A stretch of 64,000 nucleotides of DNA from Devosia sp. Leaf420 (GTDB taxonomy: Bacteria; Pseudomonadota; Alphaproteobacteria; Rhizobiales; Devosiaceae), in NCBI RefSeq assembly GCF_001425445.1, contig NZ_LMQU01000012.1, positions 454,278 through 518,277 on the forward strand. The letters are read 5' to 3'. Shown here piece after piece: positions 10,052-17,383 of the stretch. The translations under genes were made by a program, and so were the position numbers. Numbering within the stretch: position 1 is the first letter of the stretch; each line of letters begins with the position of its first letter. The notes beneath the pieces are model-generated. The model had not been told where the DNA came from. It worked only from the letters and a program-made list of their open reading frames with translations, and searched no databases.

Positions 10052-10561
10052 GTGGCGGTTGCCGTAACGCTGCTGTTCGATCCGGTTGCCACCGCCTCGG
10101 TGCGGGAAATCTGGCATCGGATGGCGGAACTGGGGATCAGTTCGAGCATGCTCGATCTGCACTACCCGCCGCATCTGACGCTGATCGTGGTCGAGGATGA
10201 GGGGCTGGCGGGGCAGCTTGATCGCGCCTTGCCGGATCTGGCGCAAGATGCGCGGCTCAATTTGACGCTTGGGCCGCCGGGGCGGTTTGTAGACACCGAT
10301 GTCGTGTGGCTCGGCGTCGATGGTGCCGGATTGCGCGAGCTACAGGCCAAGGCGGCGACTTTGGTGGGTGATGCTGCCATTGCGCCGCACTATCGACCCG
10401 ACGGCTGGGTGCCGCATGTGACGCTGCAGACGGCGGGGCATGCGGATGCGGCGCTTGAGCTGGCGCATACGATGTGGCCAGCCCAACAGGCAGCGGAAGT
10501 GCGCACGATCGAGCTGGTGGGTTTTAGCCCGATCGTGACGCTCAAGCGTCTCGGGGTTTAA
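10052..10561 (+). CDS. 2H phosphoesterase (2'-5' RNA ligase-like family)
   Basis: 169 residues with a GTG start 2 bp after the aminotransferase stop. Both catalytic HxTx motifs of the 2H superfamily are present: HLTL (His41, Thr43) and HVTL (His122, Thr124), about 80 residues apart as expected for LigT-like enzymes. Members hydrolyse cyclic phosphodiesters, such as 2',3'-cyclic nucleotides or ADP-ribose 1'',2''-cyclic phosphate, and some ligate RNA ends. No RNA-repair partner genes lie beside it. The last bases overlap tail-to-tail with the minus-strand gene ending at 10558. Confidence 0.8.
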   Translation: MAVAVTLLFDPVATASVREIWHRMAELGISSSMLDLHYPPHLTLIVVEDEGLAGQLDRALPDLAQDARLNLTLGPPGRFVDTDVVWLGVDGAGLRELQAKAATLVGDAAIAPHYRPDGWVPHVTLQTAGHADAALELAHTMWPAQQAAEVRTIELVGFSPIVTLKRLGV

Positions 10562-11694
10562 CCGAGGAGGCCCGCAAGGCTAAAGCCTGGCGTGGACTTG
10601 CTGGAACTGCCGCTGCTGGCGCCCAGCTGGTTGAACATTTCCATGAGCTTGTTGGACGACGAATAATTAGCAACGGCCGCTTCATAGAGCTTGTCGGACC
10701 AGCCGGCGGCCTGGCGTTCCTCAGCGCTGAGCGAGGAGAATGCCGAGATGACATTCTGGCTGAAGGCGGTGGGGTCGGACGATTTGGACGCGGACTTGAG
10801 GCCCGCCATCAGTACTGCGCTCGATTTGGTGCGCAGCTCGGACTTTGCGGCCGCAACTTCTTGGGACGAGAACTGGCCTTCCTTGTCGAGCACGATGGAC
10901 GAGAGCGTGCGGCTCGATAGATCGGACAAATCGATAAGGGCGCCAGTGCCGTTTGGCTTCAAAGTCGGGACCTTGCCAGCGGCGGTGGCATCGGCATAGC
11001 GCTTGTCGATGGTGGTGCGGGCGTTGGTAGCAAGGCTGGCCATGGACTGGTCGAGCGCGCCGCGGGTTTCGAGCAACTTGATATAGGTTGCGACGGGATC
11101 ATTCTCGCCAGCTTGAGGCAAGGTTTTGGAATCGGTCTGGAGCTGCTTGAGGCCTTCGGTAACTGAGGCGCGCGAGGCCTGCCAATCGGCACTGACTTTT
11201 TCCTCGGGGCCCAGAGCGTCGAGGAAGGTCGCCGCGGCATTGTAGAGGCCGGTGTAATTGCCGGTTACCTTCGCAATGGATAGCGGGCCTGCGAGCGCCG
11301 CTTCCATGCGACGCTGCATTTCGAGCTTGGCGGCGTCGTTTTGGTCGGCGGCAAAACTCTTGTCGCTCGCCATCGCATAAAGCTCGCGAGAATCAAGGCT
11401 CGACATATCCAGCGCGAGTTCGCCGTTTTGGAGCGGCGATTTACGGCCGGCGGCTTCGAGCAATTCGGTCAGCTTGGTGCGCGCATCGGCGAGGACTGCG
11501 GCGAAGGAGCGCTCGGAGAGGGCTGCTTTCGCGGCGTCTGACAGTGTGATGGAGGTGGCGGAGGATGATGTGGCAGTTGCCGCGGCAGTCGTCTTCGTTT
11601 TGGCGCTGGCGGTTGTCGTCGTTGCGGCGGAGGCGCTGCCCGACGATGTCGCGGTCGAATAGGCGGTGTAATAGGAATTGGTGATAGCGACCAT
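10558..11694 (-). CDS. Unrecognised 378-residue protein with Ser/Thr/Ala-rich N-terminus
   Basis: Begins MVAITNSYYTAYSTAT and continues with about 45 residues of Ser/Thr/Ala/Lys low complexity. A Ser-Leu-Ser/Asp-Ala helix follows (ITLSDAAKAALSER), then alternating helical regions to residue ~355, and a Ser-rich tail. There is no signal peptide, no transmembrane segment and no cysteine. Its start (MVAITN..) and 'LSDAAKA' helix resemble flagellar/secreted axial-type proteins in style, but I cannot assign a family. The motA/motB genes lie 18 kb away. The minus-strand stop overlaps the phosphoesterase stop. Its upstream side faces the 3' end of the sRNA array, which is transcribed in the same direction. 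Confidence 0.65.
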   Translation of the reverse strand: MVAITNSYYTAYSTATSSGSASAATTTTASAKTKTTAAATATSSSATSITLSDAAKAALSERSFAAVLADARTKLTELLEAAGRKSPLQNGELALDMSSLDSRELYAMASDKSFAADQNDAAKLEMQRRMEAALAGPLSIAKVTGNYTGLYNAAATFLDALGPEEKVSADWQASRASVTEGLKQLQTDSKTLPQAGENDPVATYIKLLETRGALDQSMASLATNARTTIDKRYADATAAGKVPTLKPNGTGALIDLSDLSSRTLSSIVLDKEGQFSSQEVAAAKSELRTKSSAVLMAGLKSASKSSDPTAFSQNVISAFSSLSAEERQAAGWSDKLYEAAVANYSSSNKLMEMFNQLGASSGSSSKSTPGFSLAGLLG

Positions 11695-11840
11695 TGCAGC
11701 GTTCTCCTTGCTGCTAATGGTTAAGCAAACCTTGTGCCGTTTAATTTACGTGTGAAATCAATAGGGTGGCACTGTGCAATTTGGCCGGGCGGCATGTTTT
11801 GCCGAGTGCGCTGAGCAAATTGTATCGAGGGAGGGGGAGA
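11695..11840. other. Gap between sRNA copy D and the 10558 gene
   Basis: 146 bp carrying the promoter side of the minus-strand gene that starts at 11694. I see no ORF or clear hairpin. TTAA-N7-TTGT at 11721-11735 is a seven-of-eight match to a CtrA site, which I do not call. Confidence 0.4.
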
Positions 11841-11937
11841 AATAAAGAGGCCCCACCCGAGGGGATGGGTGGGGCCAGGGGTCTTCGGCAGAGCCGCTGA
11901 CCTTGGAGGGGTGGTACACCACGTACACCACCTTCAA
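11841..11937 (-). ncRNA. sRNA copy D of tandem anti-SD array (diverged)
   Basis: The start is inferred about 7 nt downstream of a -10-like AGATAG (11944-11949). The 3' end is a terminator with a 10-bp stem GGCCCCACCC/GGGTGGGGCC (11849-11876) followed by TCTTTATTT. The loop ATCCCCTC matches the terminator loop of copy C. Only a degenerate anti-SD motif remains (CCCCTCC, minus strand, near 11908). The promoter geometry is identical to the other three copies, so I treat it as a decayed or specialised member. The length is about 97 nt. Confidence 0.55.
11849..11876 (-). terminator. Terminator of sRNA copy D
   Basis: 10-bp perfect stem GGCCCCACCC/GGGTGGGGCC, 8-nt loop, then TCTTTATTT on the minus strand. 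Confidence 0.75.
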
Positions 11938-11943
11938 GACCGA

Positions 11944-11997
11944 CTATCTGACTTTGTCGGTTTGACGACAAACGCTCAATAAGAAGAGCTGCCATGC
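11944..11997 (-). promoter_or_regulatory. Promoter of sRNA copy D
   Basis: Minus strand: GCATGGC (11991-11997), 19 bp, TTGTCG (-35, 11966-11971), 16 bp, AGATAG (-10, 11944-11949). Spacings equal those of copies A-C. The palindrome CTGACATGTCAG is lost here. Confidence 0.6.
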
Positions 11998-12011
11998 AGA
12001 ATCGCTACAGC

Positions 12012-12043
12012 AAAAAAAGGGGCTCCAACCGAAGTTGGAGCCC
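12012..12043 (-). terminator. Terminator of sRNA copy A
   Basis: Minus strand: 10-bp stem GGGCTCCAAC/GTTGGAGCCC with a TTCG tetraloop, followed by CTTTTTTTG. Nearly identical to the copy B terminator. Confidence 0.9.
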
Positions 12044-12207
12044 GATGATAGGGCCGAAGCCAAATCGCAAGTGTTGGCCCGATGCAAGGGAGGAGGATTT
12101 GCACCAAACCGGTGGGCCATAACCGAGGGAGGAGGATACGGTTACAACCCGGTGTCGGGCGTCGCGGGTCCTTGGGAGGAGGATAAGGAGCGGCGTCGCA
12201 TCGACAA
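12012..12207 (-). ncRNA. sRNA copy A, three CCUCCUCCC hairpins (cuckoo/alpha-r14-like)
   Basis: About 196 nt on the minus strand. Three exact CCTCCTCCC motifs (plus-strand GGGAGGAGG at 12088-12096, 12127-12135 and 12174-12182) each sit in a hairpin loop. The stems are TGCAA/TTGCA (12083-12087 with 12099-12103, extended by GGCCC/GGGCC), TAACCG/CGGTTA (12120-12125 with 12139-12144) and TCCTT/AAGGA (12169-12173 with 12185-12189). GGCTTCGGCCC (12051-12061) precedes the terminator and is shared with copies B and C. The loop sequence is complementary to the Shine-Dalgarno GGAGG, so the RNA probably binds mRNA ribosome sites, as proposed for alphaproteobacterial cuckoo/CcsR and alpha-r14 RNAs. Confidence 0.82.
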
Positions 12208-12213
12208 GACCGA

Positions 12214-12267
12214 ATATAGATTTTGACCGTTTGGTCAGCAATACGAGTTCCAACATGTCAGCTATGC
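12214..12267 (-). promoter_or_regulatory. Promoter of sRNA copy A with upstream element
   Basis: Minus strand: GCATAGC (12261-12267) and the partly palindromic CTGACATGTTGG (12250-12261), then TTGCTG (-35, 12236-12241), 16 bp, CTATAT (-10, 12214-12219). CTATAT fits the alphaproteobacterial housekeeping -10. Confidence 0.7.
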
Positions 12268-12411
12268 AATAGGCACAGCGACATTCTGTCCAAAATTTGA
12301 GCAGCTTGTATGGAAGGGGTGTGGCGGAGGCGATGGAAGAGGTGGGGTCTGGCCAAGGCCGCTAGCTCCTTGAGCGGGTGTTTCCGCCTCCGGCGCACTC
12401 CGCTCACCGTG

Positions 12412-12499
12412 CTTCCCTCAGGCTTGACCCGAGGGGCACTCCGCTAGGCACTGATGTTCGTGGCTTCCGCGTGGGCCTTCGGGTCAAGCCCGAGGGAAG
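12412..12499. repeat. 88-bp palindromic-arm repeat, copy 1
   Basis: Inverted arms CTTCCCTCAGGCTTGACCCG and its near complement CGGGTCAAGCCCGAGGGAAG enclose about 42 bp. A second element of the same 88-bp length and arm sequence lies at 62635-62722. Located between sRNA copies A and B; no coding capacity. REP/BIME-like. Confidence 0.75.
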
Positions 12500-12587
12500 T
12501 TCGGTGGGTGGAAGAGTTGAGTGCCGGAAGGGACAAAGGGGAGTTGGCCCCGGACTGTACGGAGAGTGTTCGTGCTGGGTGACATCT

Positions 12588-12635
12588 CAGTATGGGCCCG
12601 GCTTTCGCCGGGGTGACAATTGAGTTCGAGATGGG
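12588..12635. repeat. REP-like palindromic repeat, copy 2
   Basis: GGGCCCGGC TTTC GCCGGGG followed by GTGACAATTGAGTTCGAGATGGG. Matches copy 1 (3418-3465) over about 40 bp, including the unpaired tail. Confidence 0.75.
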
Positions 12636-12693
12636 AACGGTAGGAGGAGGCTAGCGCCAGCGAGGTGGCTGGCATGTCTAAATGCATTTGGGC

Positions 12694-12725
12694 AAAAAAA
12701 GAGGCTCCAACCGAAGTTGGAGCCT
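12694..12725 (-). terminator. Terminator of sRNA copy B
   Basis: Minus strand: AGGCTCCAAC TTCG GTTGGAGCCT then CTTTTTTTG. It differs from the copy A stem only by one compensated pair. Confidence 0.9.
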
Positions 12726-12886
12726 GATGACTGGGCCGAAGCCAAATCGAAAGTGGGGCAGAGGCAAGGGAGGAGGATATGCCATCTGCCGTGAGCCTTG
12801 GGTCTAGGGAGGAGGAAAAGACCCTTAGCTCGGTGTCGCGATACGGGGTCCGAGGGAGGAGGAGTTCGGAGCGCGTCTCAGCGACA
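12694..12886 (-). ncRNA. sRNA copy B, three CCUCCUCCC hairpins (cuckoo/alpha-r14-like)
   Basis: About 193 nt on the minus strand. Three exact CCTCCTCCC motifs lie at 12768-12776, 12807-12815 and 12854-12862 (as GGGAGGAGG on plus). Each is looped out by a stem: GGCAGAGGCA/TGCC-A-TCTGCC (12757-12766 with 12780-12790), GGGTCT/AGACCC (12800-12805 with 12819-12824) and CCGA/TCGG (12850-12853 with 12866-12869). The stems differ in sequence from copy A but keep their positions, so pairing is conserved rather than primary sequence. The GGCTTCGGCCC element recurs at 12733-12743. Terminator and promoter are near-identical in layout to copy A. Confidence 0.82.
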
Positions 12887-12892
12887 CGACCT

Positions 12893-12946
12893 ATATGTAC
12901 TCTACTGACTTAGTCGGCAATACGGCCACTGACATGTCAGCCATGC
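12893..12946 (-). promoter_or_regulatory. Promoter of sRNA copy B with 12-bp palindrome
   Basis: Minus strand: GCATGGC (12940-12946), the perfect palindrome CTGACATGTCAG (12929-12940), TTGCCG (-35, 12915-12920), 16 bp, ACATAT (-10, 12893-12898). The palindrome is centred about 50 bp upstream of the inferred start, a position suited to an activator. Confidence 0.72.
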
Positions 12947-13030
12947 ATTTTTGCAAGGCTGCTGAAAAAATTGCAAACGCGTGCATTCGGCAAAAGCACA
13001 AGCGCCACGTTATCAAATCAGAAGGGGCGG

Positions 13031-13068
13031 AAAGAAAAAGGCTTCGCCCGAGGGGAGAGCGAAGCCTT
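13031..13068 (-). terminator. Terminator of sRNA copy C
   Basis: Minus strand: AAGGCTTCGC, 11-nt loop, GCGAAGCCTT, then TTTCTTT. Confidence 0.85.
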
Positions 13069-13144
13069 AGAGGGTCGGGCCGAAGCCCGAAGGAGGGAAC
13101 GCAGCGCGTTGCAAGGGAGGAGGAGAAACATCCGCGCTGTGATG
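13031..13144 (-). ncRNA. sRNA copy C, one CCUCCUCCC motif (cuckoo/alpha-r14-like)
   Basis: About 114 nt on the minus strand. It has one exact CCTCCTCCC motif (13115-13123) and one shortened motif (CCCTCC, 13092-13097). The shared GGCTTCGGCCC element (13077-13087) forms a small hairpin CGGGC/GCCCG. The terminator has a 10-bp stem AAGGCTTCGC/GCGAAGCCTT and an 11-nt loop TCTCCCCTCGG, unlike the TTCG loops of A and B but like copy D. C and D therefore form one sub-type, A and B another. It is the first copy in the direction of transcription. Confidence 0.75.
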
Positions 13145-13150
13145 TGCTCG

Positions 13151-13204
13151 ATATATGAGCGCCTTGCCCATTCGCCAACCAGGGTACTGACATGTCAGGC
13201 ATGC
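13151..13204 (-). promoter_or_regulatory. Promoter of sRNA copy C with 12-bp palindrome
   Basis: Minus strand: GCATGCC (13198-13204), perfect CTGACATGTCAG (13187-13198), TTGGCG (-35, 13173-13178), 16 bp, ATATAT (-10, 13151-13156). Same geometry as the other three copies. Confidence 0.72.
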
Positions 13205-13278: not shown

Positions 13279-13764
13279 CTAATTTATGGGCTGATCGACG
13301 AAGGATGCTGCCAACGAAGTGCGCAGCGCGTCACCGGTGTCGTATTCGATATCGTCCAGAACCCAGCCTTTGTCGGTTTTTATGAGATTGAGACGGTCGG
13401 AATAGTTGGCGGCGGAATCGCTGGTAAAGCTGTAGTTGATCTCGACCTTTGCAGTGTCTGCATTGCTCTCGATTGCACCGACGTCGCAACCATCGGCATA
13501 GTCCTGCCAACTGCGCCAGGGGAGGCCATCGCCCAGAGGCGGTTTTTCGTCTGGCGCTGCTGCTTGCAGTGCATCGCTCTTGGCCCAGGCGTCGACGACG
13601 ATGATGGACAGGGCTGGAGACAGTGCGTCTTCGATCGGCGACATATCGCCATCAAGACTCGCGCGGCAAAAGGCATCGCCGAAGTCAGCGGGGGTAGTAG
13701 ATGCTGCCATGGCTGTTGCAGTGGTCAGCAACAGTCCTATGGCGGTGAGAACAAGACGCAGCAT
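13279..13764 (-). CDS. Secreted protein of unknown function
   Basis: 161 residues with a signal peptide (1-21, ATAMAAS). The mature part begins with a helical ADFGDAFCRAS segment, continues with a conserved-looking GDGLPWRSWQDYADGCDVG, and ends in beta strands NYSDRLNLIKTDKGWVLDDIEY. That last strand pair is typical of NTF2/DUF3828-like small periplasmic domains, where a conserved Trp closes the cone, but the assignment is only by style. Two cysteines (33 and ~93) could form a disulfide. The stop lies 75 bp beyond the sRNA copy C upstream element, and the gene is transcribed into the array. Confidence 0.65.
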   Translation of the reverse strand: MLRLVLTAIGLLLTTATAMAASTTPADFGDAFCRASLDGDMSPIEDALSPALSIIVVDAWAKSDALQAAAPDEKPPLGDGLPWRSWQDYADGCDVGAIESNADTAKVEINYSFTSDSAANYSDRLNLIKTDKGWVLDDIEYDTGDALRTSLAASFVDQPIN

Positions 13765-15337: not shown

Positions 15338-16237
15338 TTAGAAGCTCCACTCTCTCGCCTTCGAGACCAAAAAGTCGCGGAAGACGCCGACGCGCTTGGA
15401 GTTTTTGAGGGCGGGTGGGTAGACGAAATAGGCTTCGTAGGCCGGGAGTTCGACTTCGGGAAGCACCTGGACGAGGCCGTCTTCCTTCTCGGTCACATAG
15501 GCCGGGAGCATGGCGAGGCCGATGCCGGCGCGGCAGGCTTGCATCATTCCGTAGATGGCATTGACCTTGAGGGAGGCGCGGCGCGGGCTCGATTCCGAGC
15601 GGCCCATGCGCTCGAGGAAGTTGATGTCGCCGAGATAAGACGGGACAGGCTCGCCGAAGCTGATGATGCGGTGATTGTCGAGATCGTCCAGCGAGCGCGG
15701 CATGCCGTGTTCGTCGATGTATGAATTGCTGGCGTAGAAGTAATTGTGGACCGTGAACAGCTTGCGCTGGATCATTTCCGACTGATTGGGGCGGTGGAGG
15801 CGGATGGCCACGTCGGCCTCGCGCATGGCGAGATCGAGTTCGGAGTCGTTGAGACGGATTTCGAGCTGGATCAGCGGATAGAGTTTCAAAAACTCATCAA
15901 GCCGCGAGGAGAGCCAGGTGGAGCCGATGCCGACTGTCGTGGTGACGATCAAGGGGCCGGTGGGCTCGTCCTGGCTTTCGGACATCTGCGTTTCCACCTG
16001 CTGCAGTTCCCAATGCATGCGATGGGCGGTGCGGAAGAGTTGCTCGCCGACTTCGGTGAGCACCAGGCCGCGCGCGTGGCGAATGAAGAGTTTCAGGCCG
16101 AGATCGTCTTCAAGCGCTGAAATCTGCCGGCTGACGGCCGACTGGCTCATGCCAAGCTTTTCAGCGGCATGGGTGAAACTGCCCGACTCGGCGGCCGTGT
16201 GGAAAATCCGAAGCTTGTCCCAATCGAGCATTTTCAT
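15338..16237 (-). CDS. LysR-family transcriptional regulator
   Basis: 299 residues. The N-terminal winged helix-turn-helix is textbook: WDKLRIFHTAAESGSFTHAAEKLGMSQSAVSRQISALEDDLGLKLF (about residues 5-52 overall). It is followed by a linker helix and a periplasmic-binding-like effector domain (about 92-295). Two ATGs, 16237 and 16231, are both possible starts. It lies just downstream of trxB on the same strand, an arrangement often seen in alphaproteobacteria. The regulated genes are unknown; the conserved neighbourhood hints at redox or envelope targets but that is inference. Confidence 0.88.
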   Translation of the reverse strand: MKMLDWDKLRIFHTAAESGSFTHAAEKLGMSQSAVSRQISALEDDLGLKLFIRHARGLVLTEVGEQLFRTAHRMHWELQQVETQMSESQDEPTGPLIVTTTVGIGSTWLSSRLDEFLKLYPLIQLEIRLNDSELDLAMREADVAIRLHRPNQSEMIQRKLFTVHNYFYASNSYIDEHGMPRSLDDLDNHRIISFGEPVPSYLGDINFLERMGRSESSPRRASLKVNAIYGMMQACRAGIGLAMLPAYVTEKEDGLVQVLPEVELPAYEAYFVYPPALKNSKRVGVFRDFLVSKAREWSF

Positions 16238-16348: not shown

Positions 16349-17299
16349 CTACTCAGCCGCTTCGGCAAGTTCGTGTTCGGCAAGAAAGCGTTCCGCGTCG
16401 AGCGCGGCCATGCAGCCCATGCCGGCGGCAGTGACGGCCTGACGATAGACATCGTCTGTCACGTCGCCGGCGGCAAAGACGCCCGGAATGTTGGTTTCGG
16501 TGCTGCCGGGTTTGACCTGCAGGTAGCCGCCCGGCTTCATGTCGAGCTTGCCGGCAAAGATGGCGGTGGCAGGCGCGTGACCGATGGCGACGAAGACACC
16601 GTCGATGGGCTGCTCATAGACGCGGCCGGTGGCGTTGTCCTTGAGGGTGACCGCATTGACCGATGGCGGCATGGGCGTGCCGTTGACCTCGGCGATCTCG
16701 TGGTGCCAGCGCACCTCGATCTTGGGGTTCTTGAAGAGGCGTTCCTGAAGGATGCGTTCGGCGCGGAATTCGCCGCGGCGATGCACCATGATCACCTTCT
16801 CGGCGAAATTGGTGAGGAAGAGGGCTTCTTCGACAGCCGTGTTGCCGCCGCCGACAACGAGCACCTGCTTGCCACGATAGAAGAAGCCATCGCAGGTGGC
16901 GCAGGCAGAGACGCCAAAGCCCTGGAACTTCTGCTCGGACGGCAGGCCCAGCCACTTGGCCTGGGCGCCGGTGGAGATGATGATGCTGTCGGCGGTGTAG
17001 GTATCGCCGCTATCGCCGGTGAGGACGAAGGGGCGGCGGTCGAAATCGACATGGTTGATGATGTCGTTGACCATCTTGGTGCCGACATGCTCGGCTTGTG
17101 CCTTCATCTGGTCCATGAGCCAGGGGCCCTGGATGACGTCGGCGAAGCCGGGATAGTTTTCGACATCGGTGGTGATGGTCAGCTGGCCGCCCGGTTGAAG
17201 GCCCTGGATCATCACCGGCTCGAGCATGGCGCGCGCAGCGTAAATCGCGGCGGTATAGCCGGCAGGACCGGAGCCGATGATGATGACTTTCGCGTGCAT
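16349..17299 (-). CDS. trxB: Thioredoxin-disulfide reductase
   Basis: 316-residue cytosolic flavoenzyme that reduces thioredoxin with NADPH. Features in order: the FAD-binding GSGPAGYTAAIYAAR (9-23), the substrate-binding QPGGQLTITTDVENYPGF, the redox-active CATC (Cys133/Cys136) within SACATCDGFFYRG, the NADPH-binding GGGNTAVEEALFL with the HRRGEFRAE arginines, and the C-terminal FAAGDVTDDVYRQAVTAAGMGC. ATG 17299 is preceded by GAGAGG at good spacing; an in-frame TTG at 17314 is a weaker start. It is followed by the LysR gene on the same strand. Confidence 0.96.
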   Translation of the reverse strand: MHAKVIIIGSGPAGYTAAIYAARAMLEPVMIQGLQPGGQLTITTDVENYPGFADVIQGPWLMDQMKAQAEHVGTKMVNDIINHVDFDRRPFVLTGDSGDTYTADSIIISTGAQAKWLGLPSEQKFQGFGVSACATCDGFFYRGKQVLVVGGGNTAVEEALFLTNFAEKVIMVHRRGEFRAERILQERLFKNPKIEVRWHHEIAEVNGTPMPPSVNAVTLKDNATGRVYEQPIDGVFVAIGHAPATAIFAGKLDMKPGGYLQVKPGSTETNIPGVFAAGDVTDDVYRQAVTAAGMGCMAALDAERFLAEHELAEAAE

Positions 17300-17383
17300 C
17301 GCGACGCCTCTCAAATAAAAAAGGAAAACTCCCTCAGGGCCTAATTAAGAGCCGATGAGGTTCGGTTTCAAGGCACTATGACG

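Follow-up and report, generated by a model that had tools for sequence, protein, structure and literature searches.

A conserved minus-strand array of RNA-like units with anti-Shine-Dalgarno loops at the lsrB locus of Devosia

What kind of element occupies positions 11840-13150 (minus strand) of the window, that is, of the whole 64,000-nucleotide stretch of Devosia sp. Leaf420 DNA that was analysed, and how might it be controlled and act? A preliminary description had read it as a tandem array of small RNA genes with anti-Shine-Dalgarno (anti-SD) hairpins. The array is confirmed here: it is real and conserved, its functional kind is a known one, and it consists of four minus-strand RNA-like units with anti-SD loops, in the transcription order C, A, B, D.

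13035..13146, minus strand: unit C, single-loop anti-SD RNA with a CUCCUCCUCCC loop, GCUGCGUUCCCUCC, a small hairpin and a terminator (ends predicted from the promoter and the T-run)
12694..12886, minus strand: unit A (unit 1 of the relatives), three-loop anti-SD RNA (by fold, covariation and an ar14 match of 35.0 bits)
12887-12833, 12831-12793 and 12790-12757, minus strand: hairpins of unit A (predicted fold)
12748-12729 and 12725-12702, minus strand: UUCG hairpin and terminator of unit A (predicted fold)
12012..12207, minus strand: unit B (unit 2 of the relatives), three-loop anti-SD RNA (by fold, covariation and an ar14 match of 36.2 bits)
12182-12174, 12135-12127 and 12096-12088, minus strand: motifs of unit B, with its terminator at 12043-12020 (predicted fold)
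11841..11937, minus strand: unit D, the fourth RNA-like unit; CCCCTCC lies between hairpins, and the terminator is strong (predicted ends)

The seven exact minus-strand copies of CCTCCTCCC that had been claimed are present (unit B, 12088, 12127 and 12174; unit A, 12768, 12807 and 12854; unit C, 13115), and there are none elsewhere in the window. Shuffling the window 100 times gave a mean of 1.01 copies, and no shuffle reached 7. Pairs of the motif at the array spacing number four in the whole 4.22-Mb genome, all of them in the array, against 0 in the backward control. Compared with 200 dinucleotide shuffles, units A (z=-7.7), B (z=-5.3) and C (z=-4.8) fold better than any shuffle, and unit D (z=-3.9) is equalled by one. 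Folding each unit also bore out the claim that the six motifs of A and B lie in the loops of independently sequenced stems: in the predicted folds all three motifs of either unit are unpaired, in separate hairpins, with a GGCUUCGGCC hairpin and then a terminator downstream. Unit C had been credited with one motif plus a shortened one; the single exact copy stands, and the second is corrected to TTCCCTCCT. Unit D, to which a degenerate loop had been ascribed, has only its CCCCTCC stretch, but in 30 of 39 loci the array is succeeded by a D-like unit, with a box-like GCAT element and a CCAAGG core. In the window, units A and B are spaced by 680 bp; over 34 loci, the spacing of the two three-loop units is 295-695 bp. 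Between A and B there is an inverted repeat (12399-12512; 37-nt arms, 84% complementary), which sits in extra sequence that widens the unit spacing to 680 bp.

The preliminary description had further claimed that the stems stay paired although their bases change, and had made its reading depend on the conservation of these stems in related genomes. Within the family (136 genomes including Leaf420's own, from 16 genera), motif pairs 20-50 nt apart occur in 114 genomes, and in 104 of the 119 good assemblies. The loci of 38 relatives (L038-L075, those with coordinates among the matches listed) together with the window contain 100 motif clusters, of which 72 have three motifs, 5 have two and 23 have one; in the three-motif clusters the spacings are 45-49 nt and 37-41 nt. 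Covariation was assessed in an alignment of 56 of the 72 three-loop units, from 31 of the 38 genomes that have them (16 units were omitted by hand for brevity, including the first units of L049, L056 and L062, whose 3' part is truncated or deleted). Its consensus has 43 pairs, with 95.8% of cells paired versus 84.2% in shuffles. Both sides have changed with pairing kept in 29 of the 43 pairs (19.2 in shuffles) and in 336 cells (109.5 in shuffles), the covariation score is 0.421 versus 0.206, and none of 500 shuffles reached any of the five measures. Sliding the pairing partners lowered the paired fraction to 28-53%. The stems are thus conserved as pairs in the relatives, with two-sided changes in sequence. 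In a tree of all 72 units, in which two labels were assigned by hand, 31 of the 34 first units split from all 38 second units with support of 0.82; therefore, the two copies are old and, over most of the genus, have stayed separate. Of 39 loci, 35 show the unit C layout.

Two genes on the same strand lie upstream of the array.

15338..16237, minus strand: lsrB/vtlR ortholog, LysR regulator of 299 aa (best PDB match 9HH1, deposited as A. tumefaciens LsrB, E=2e-112)
16349..17314, minus strand: trxB, thioredoxin reductase (TIGR01292 above cut-off)

An lsrB-like gene at E<=1e-90 is present in 190 of 219 genomes of the order, one per genome among the matches listed. In the window, lsrB adjoins trxB, which is upstream of lsrB in 40 of 40 loci of the order. 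The named relatives of the window's lsrB are mainly from Devosia (D. soli and D. riboflavina are close ones), then Pelagibacterium, Maritalea and Arsenicitalea (its own record may be absent). In all 38 Devosiaceae loci, which were chosen by their motif pairs, the array is downstream of trxB-lsrB on the same strand, and the distance from the start of lsrB to the first multi-motif cluster is 1.1-4.0 kb. When loci of other Devosiaceae genera were chosen by lsrB instead, motifs were found 0.3-3.8 kb downstream in 4 of 4. In other families, no multi-motif unit was found near lsrB in 36 loci of 10 kb each, and a single motif was found in 5; an AbcR-like layout follows lsrB in 20 of the 36, as judged by a loose text pattern used without a control. 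At L111, L134 and L141, from some of the other families, the AbcR-like unit by eye appears two to three times, each with a box-like promoter. Multi-motif RNAs are present in 9 of the 36 other-family genomes (G177 is one in which the backward control matches once too), and where they share a contig with lsrB they are never closer than about 186 kb. The proteins flanking the array (10558-11694, 378 aa; 13279-13764, 161 aa) are common in the relatives' loci and have no Pfam or NCBIfam match. The preliminary description had missed that the array sits at the lsrB (AbcR) locus, and had noted neither its LsrB-type boxes nor the dyad of unit B nor the likeness of the lead unit to AbcR; an anti-SD array at the lsrB locus, with its AbcR-like lead unit and its second, unit-B dyad, is new. 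No description of the array in Devosia was found in the literature, in a search that did not cover the cuckoo family paper PMC4615179.

According to PMC7486931, the VtlR/LsrB box GCAT-N3-TG-N3-T has been confirmed in Brucella and is hypothesised for Agrobacterium; in S. meliloti, NfeR1 is reported to carry TGCA-N6-GCAT (PMC10746234). Elements of the same type precede the units of the array.

13190..13204, minus strand: LsrB/VtlR-type box of unit C, GCATGCCTGACATGT, which fits GCAT-N3-TG-N3-T
12932..12946, minus strand: LsrB/VtlR-type box of unit A, GCATGGCTGACATGT
12892..12920, minus strand: predicted core promoter of unit A, TTGCCG, 17-nt spacer, CATATA (from sequence and spacing in relatives)
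12253..12267, minus strand: LsrB/VtlR-type box of unit B, GCATAGCTGACATGT
12224..12237, minus strand: operator-like dyad TGACC-N4-GGTCA of the unit B promoter, between its -35 and -10
11985..11997, minus strand: degenerate LsrB-type box of unit D, GCATGGCAGCTCT (from sequence)

The extended box GCATNNCTGACATGT has exactly three matches in the 4.2-Mb genome, one each before units A, B and C; a single one-mismatch match lies elsewhere. For the promoter counts, 99 units were used after a stray single motif (the second of L046) had been excluded. The strict box is found before 68 of these and is absent before 31, compared with 7 of 4048 background windows, and a bare GCAT is found before 98 of 99, compared with 916 of 4048; the distance from GCAT to TTG is 26 in 68 of the 84 units in which it was measured. 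Among 75 genomes of the genus Devosia, exact GCATRGCTGACATG has 85 matches in 55 genomes (20 genomes are without it, and the backward control has 1 match). Placed by hand, 74 of these are at arrays, 9 are elsewhere and 2 are unplaced. The nine off-array boxes (G015:C61:78208, G025:C1:1862897, G036:C80:67298, G045:C13:286632, G047:C2:299040, G053:C38:13652, G054:C1:725812, G061:C1:2439598 and G073:C1:538807) could mark further LsrB targets. The dyad TGACC-N4-GGTCA is present in 33 of 38 second-unit promoters, with only 34 copies in total over the 39 loci (about 780 kb), and is likely to be the operator of a second regulator. By eye, C-type units often have a similar TGAGC-N4-GCTCA.

A signal reaching LsrB through redox was also considered. 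The redox cysteines C144 and C273 of A. tumefaciens LsrB are absent from Devosiaceae LsrB, with Val at both positions in 43 of 43, and in the 36 other-family lsrB loci Cys is found at these positions in only 3 and 1, respectively. The candidate is weakened by the missing residues, and the known LsrB signal may therefore not apply.

Family membership was assessed with Rfam covariance models, as the preliminary description had proposed. The alpha-r14 model (ar14, RF02344) matches A and B at 35-37 bits, which is below the Rfam gathering score of 58.8. At E<=0.001 it matches 114 of the 136 family genomes, yet it exceeds 58.8 in only 5, all from sibling genera (59-68 bits), leaving 131 of 136 with none; in one of the five (G130), the above-cut-off unit is 3.4 kb downstream of lsrB. 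The gathering threshold would miss the array units, and the sub-threshold matches were checked against the relatives. Matches to Pxr and suhB, below cut-off at E 0.2 to 0.94, were dropped as chance. Units A and B are best called divergent alpha-r14/cuckoo relatives that fall below Rfam membership.

Alternatively, A, B, C and D could all be sequence-changed AbcR RNAs (alpha-r15), the three-loop form having arisen by convergence with alpha-r14. The locus and the promoter-box type are the same as those of AbcR, and unit C shares its anti-SD hairpin, GCUG(C)GUUCCC(C)UC and terminator layout. In contrast, A and B match ar14 and not ar15, and ar15 has no match in the 136 family genomes, which is weak evidence, as 14 controls are equally silent; at E<=1, ar15 is also absent from the window units and 19 relatives' loci. 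Among 40 lsrB loci one (L122) has an ar15 match above cut-off, and in 17 partly overlapping loci 3 are above it and 5 are below it at E<=0.3. An AbcR covariance model, R1 (8 pairs, from the terminator only, and mostly finding terminators), placed the lead unit of L143 best (E=2e-5), ahead of off-array matches (E=1e-4 to 3e-4) and of other C units (0.046 or weaker). Descent of all four units from AbcR is improbable. Lead unit C by itself resembles AbcR in place and layout, a likeness that falls short of proof.

What the RNAs might act on is suggested by S. meliloti, where LsrB is reported to activate AbcR1 and the alpha-r14 RNA NfeR1, and NfeR1 is reported to silence ntrB and two solute-binding-protein mRNAs through loops that are redundant and interchangeable (PMC10746234, PMC8844928). 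By analogy with this pairing, the Devosia RNAs should mask strong Shine-Dalgarno sites. The Leaf420 genome has 82 occurrences of GGAGGAG-N4-10-ATG, at 80 distinct sites, versus 30 in the backward control; a longer complement, GGGAGGAG-N4-12-ATG, is not enriched there (17 versus 15). Behind the GGAGGAG sites are 27 ORFs of at least 100 aa, at least three of which (L332, L343 and L195) resemble wrong-frame reads and are still counted. The ten that resembled transporters or a sugar kinase were scanned by Pfam, and nine ABC-transporter parts were identified (6 solute-binding proteins, 2 ATPases and 1 permease). No such part is found among 39 window ORFs (Fisher 1e-4, or 0.006 against the 20 with a Pfam match at E<=1e-10), a background that is one contiguous, small and non-random window, includes wrong-frame ORFs and covers 39 of 43 ORFs, 4 being omitted. 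For one solute-binding protein, chosen because its own site matched, GGAGGAG precedes 12 of 12 other-species orthologs (the ortholog is present in 13 of 61 genomes, including Leaf420's own), versus 0 of 607 gene-like ORFs from the array loci and the window, which are mostly orthologs of few genes.

In a different role, the RNAs would serve mainly as sponges of a DUF1127/CcaF1-type RNA-binding protein and would not act by mRNA pairing. CcaF1 is reported to bind RNA and to help mature the CcsR RNAs in Rhodobacter (PMC10253847), the Leaf420 genome has three DUF1127 genes, and in other families a DUF1127 ORF lies just upstream of multi-motif RNAs in 8 of 12 loci, from 6 genomes (the frame was chosen by eye where two were open). 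However, none of the three genes is on the array contig, the loop is complementary to Shine-Dalgarno sites, and NfeR1 acts by pairing according to PMC10746234. We regard the sponge role as quite unlikely. Less probable still is that the hairpins are processed or attenuating parts of one long transcript from lsrB onwards, since, although trxB, lsrB, the next three genes and the array are all readable on the minus strand of the window, each three-loop or C unit comes with its own terminator and conserved -35/-10 elements, and the genes between lsrB and the array vary between genomes while the units are constant.

From the computed sequence features, covariation, promoter boxes, linkage and distribution, we infer transcription, LsrB binding, pairing, targets and a second regulator, and consider it probable that the array forms a bank of anti-SD small RNAs, each transcribed on its own, which is activated by LsrB and represses nutrient-uptake (ABC-transporter) genes. 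In this bank, A and B would be divergent alpha-r14/cuckoo RNAs, C an AbcR-like single-loop RNA and D another conserved unit, whose motif is weak. From its gene 2.2 kb upstream, LsrB would be made, bind the GCAT-N3-TG-N3-T box that starts about 26 nt before the -35 element and recruit polymerase. The RNAs would then expose CCUCCUCCC in open loops and pair with GGGAGGAGG-like Shine-Dalgarno sequences, and this pairing would keep mRNAs whose sites are unusually strong from being translated, chiefly those for solute-binding proteins and further ABC-transporter components. With three loops, one transcript may have several interchangeable seeds. Unit B, because of its extra operator-like dyad, probably answers to a second regulator as well. 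If so, the array would be a compact soil-bacterial system, in which the extended LsrB-type box is found almost only at these RNAs and the predicted targets are ABC transporters, and it would allow one-loop and three-loop designs to be compared as they occur in nature.

In comparison to known systems, the preliminary assignment to an alpha-r14/cuckoo-type anti-SD array stands, but kinship with the CcsR/CIN1 locus is not supported. Like CcsR1-4 of Rhodobacter (RF02791) and CIN1, the units are tandem RNAs with CCUCCUCCC; however, the CcsR RNAs reportedly arise by processing of the ccaF1 (DUF1127) 3' UTR, transcribed from an RpoHI/RpoHII promoter, whereas the array units have separate predicted promoters, and because there is no DUF1127 link the units are not assigned to CcsR/CIN1. 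The three-loop layout, previously thought unusual, is the norm of its family, as alpha-r14 RNAs are described with three hairpins that each carry CCUCCUCCC (PMC10746234, PMC7143759; SmelA075/SmelA099, PMC3927594). Units A and B have this in common with alpha-r14/NfeR1 (Smr14C2), namely three hairpins, CCUCCUCCC loops and variable stems, together with several copies per genome, predicted ABC-transporter targets and, by sequence match, an LsrB-type box upstream of a sigma-70-like promoter. They differ in forming part of a four-unit array at the lsrB locus, and in that the third motif hairpin, which is the terminator in the Rfam model, is in A and B followed by a separate UUCG hairpin and terminator. 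With AbcR1/AbcR2 (alpha-r15, RF02345), reported to be located beside lsrB/vtlR (PMC8844928), the array shares that location, the tandem arrangement, the LsrB-type box and the anti-SD motif; in contrast, the ar15 model has no match, and A and B have three full motifs. Two well-known alphaproteobacterial RNA families that are separate in Rfam appear to meet at one locus, under apparently one regulator, which makes a common origin testable. More speculatively, alpha-r14/cuckoo/CcsR and alpha-r15/AbcR may be one superfamily, expanded at an ancestral lsrB locus as loops multiplied, a tentative scheme in which Devosiaceae would have kept both forms side by side and the last three-loop copy would have been recruited by a second regulator through TGACC-N4-GGTCA.
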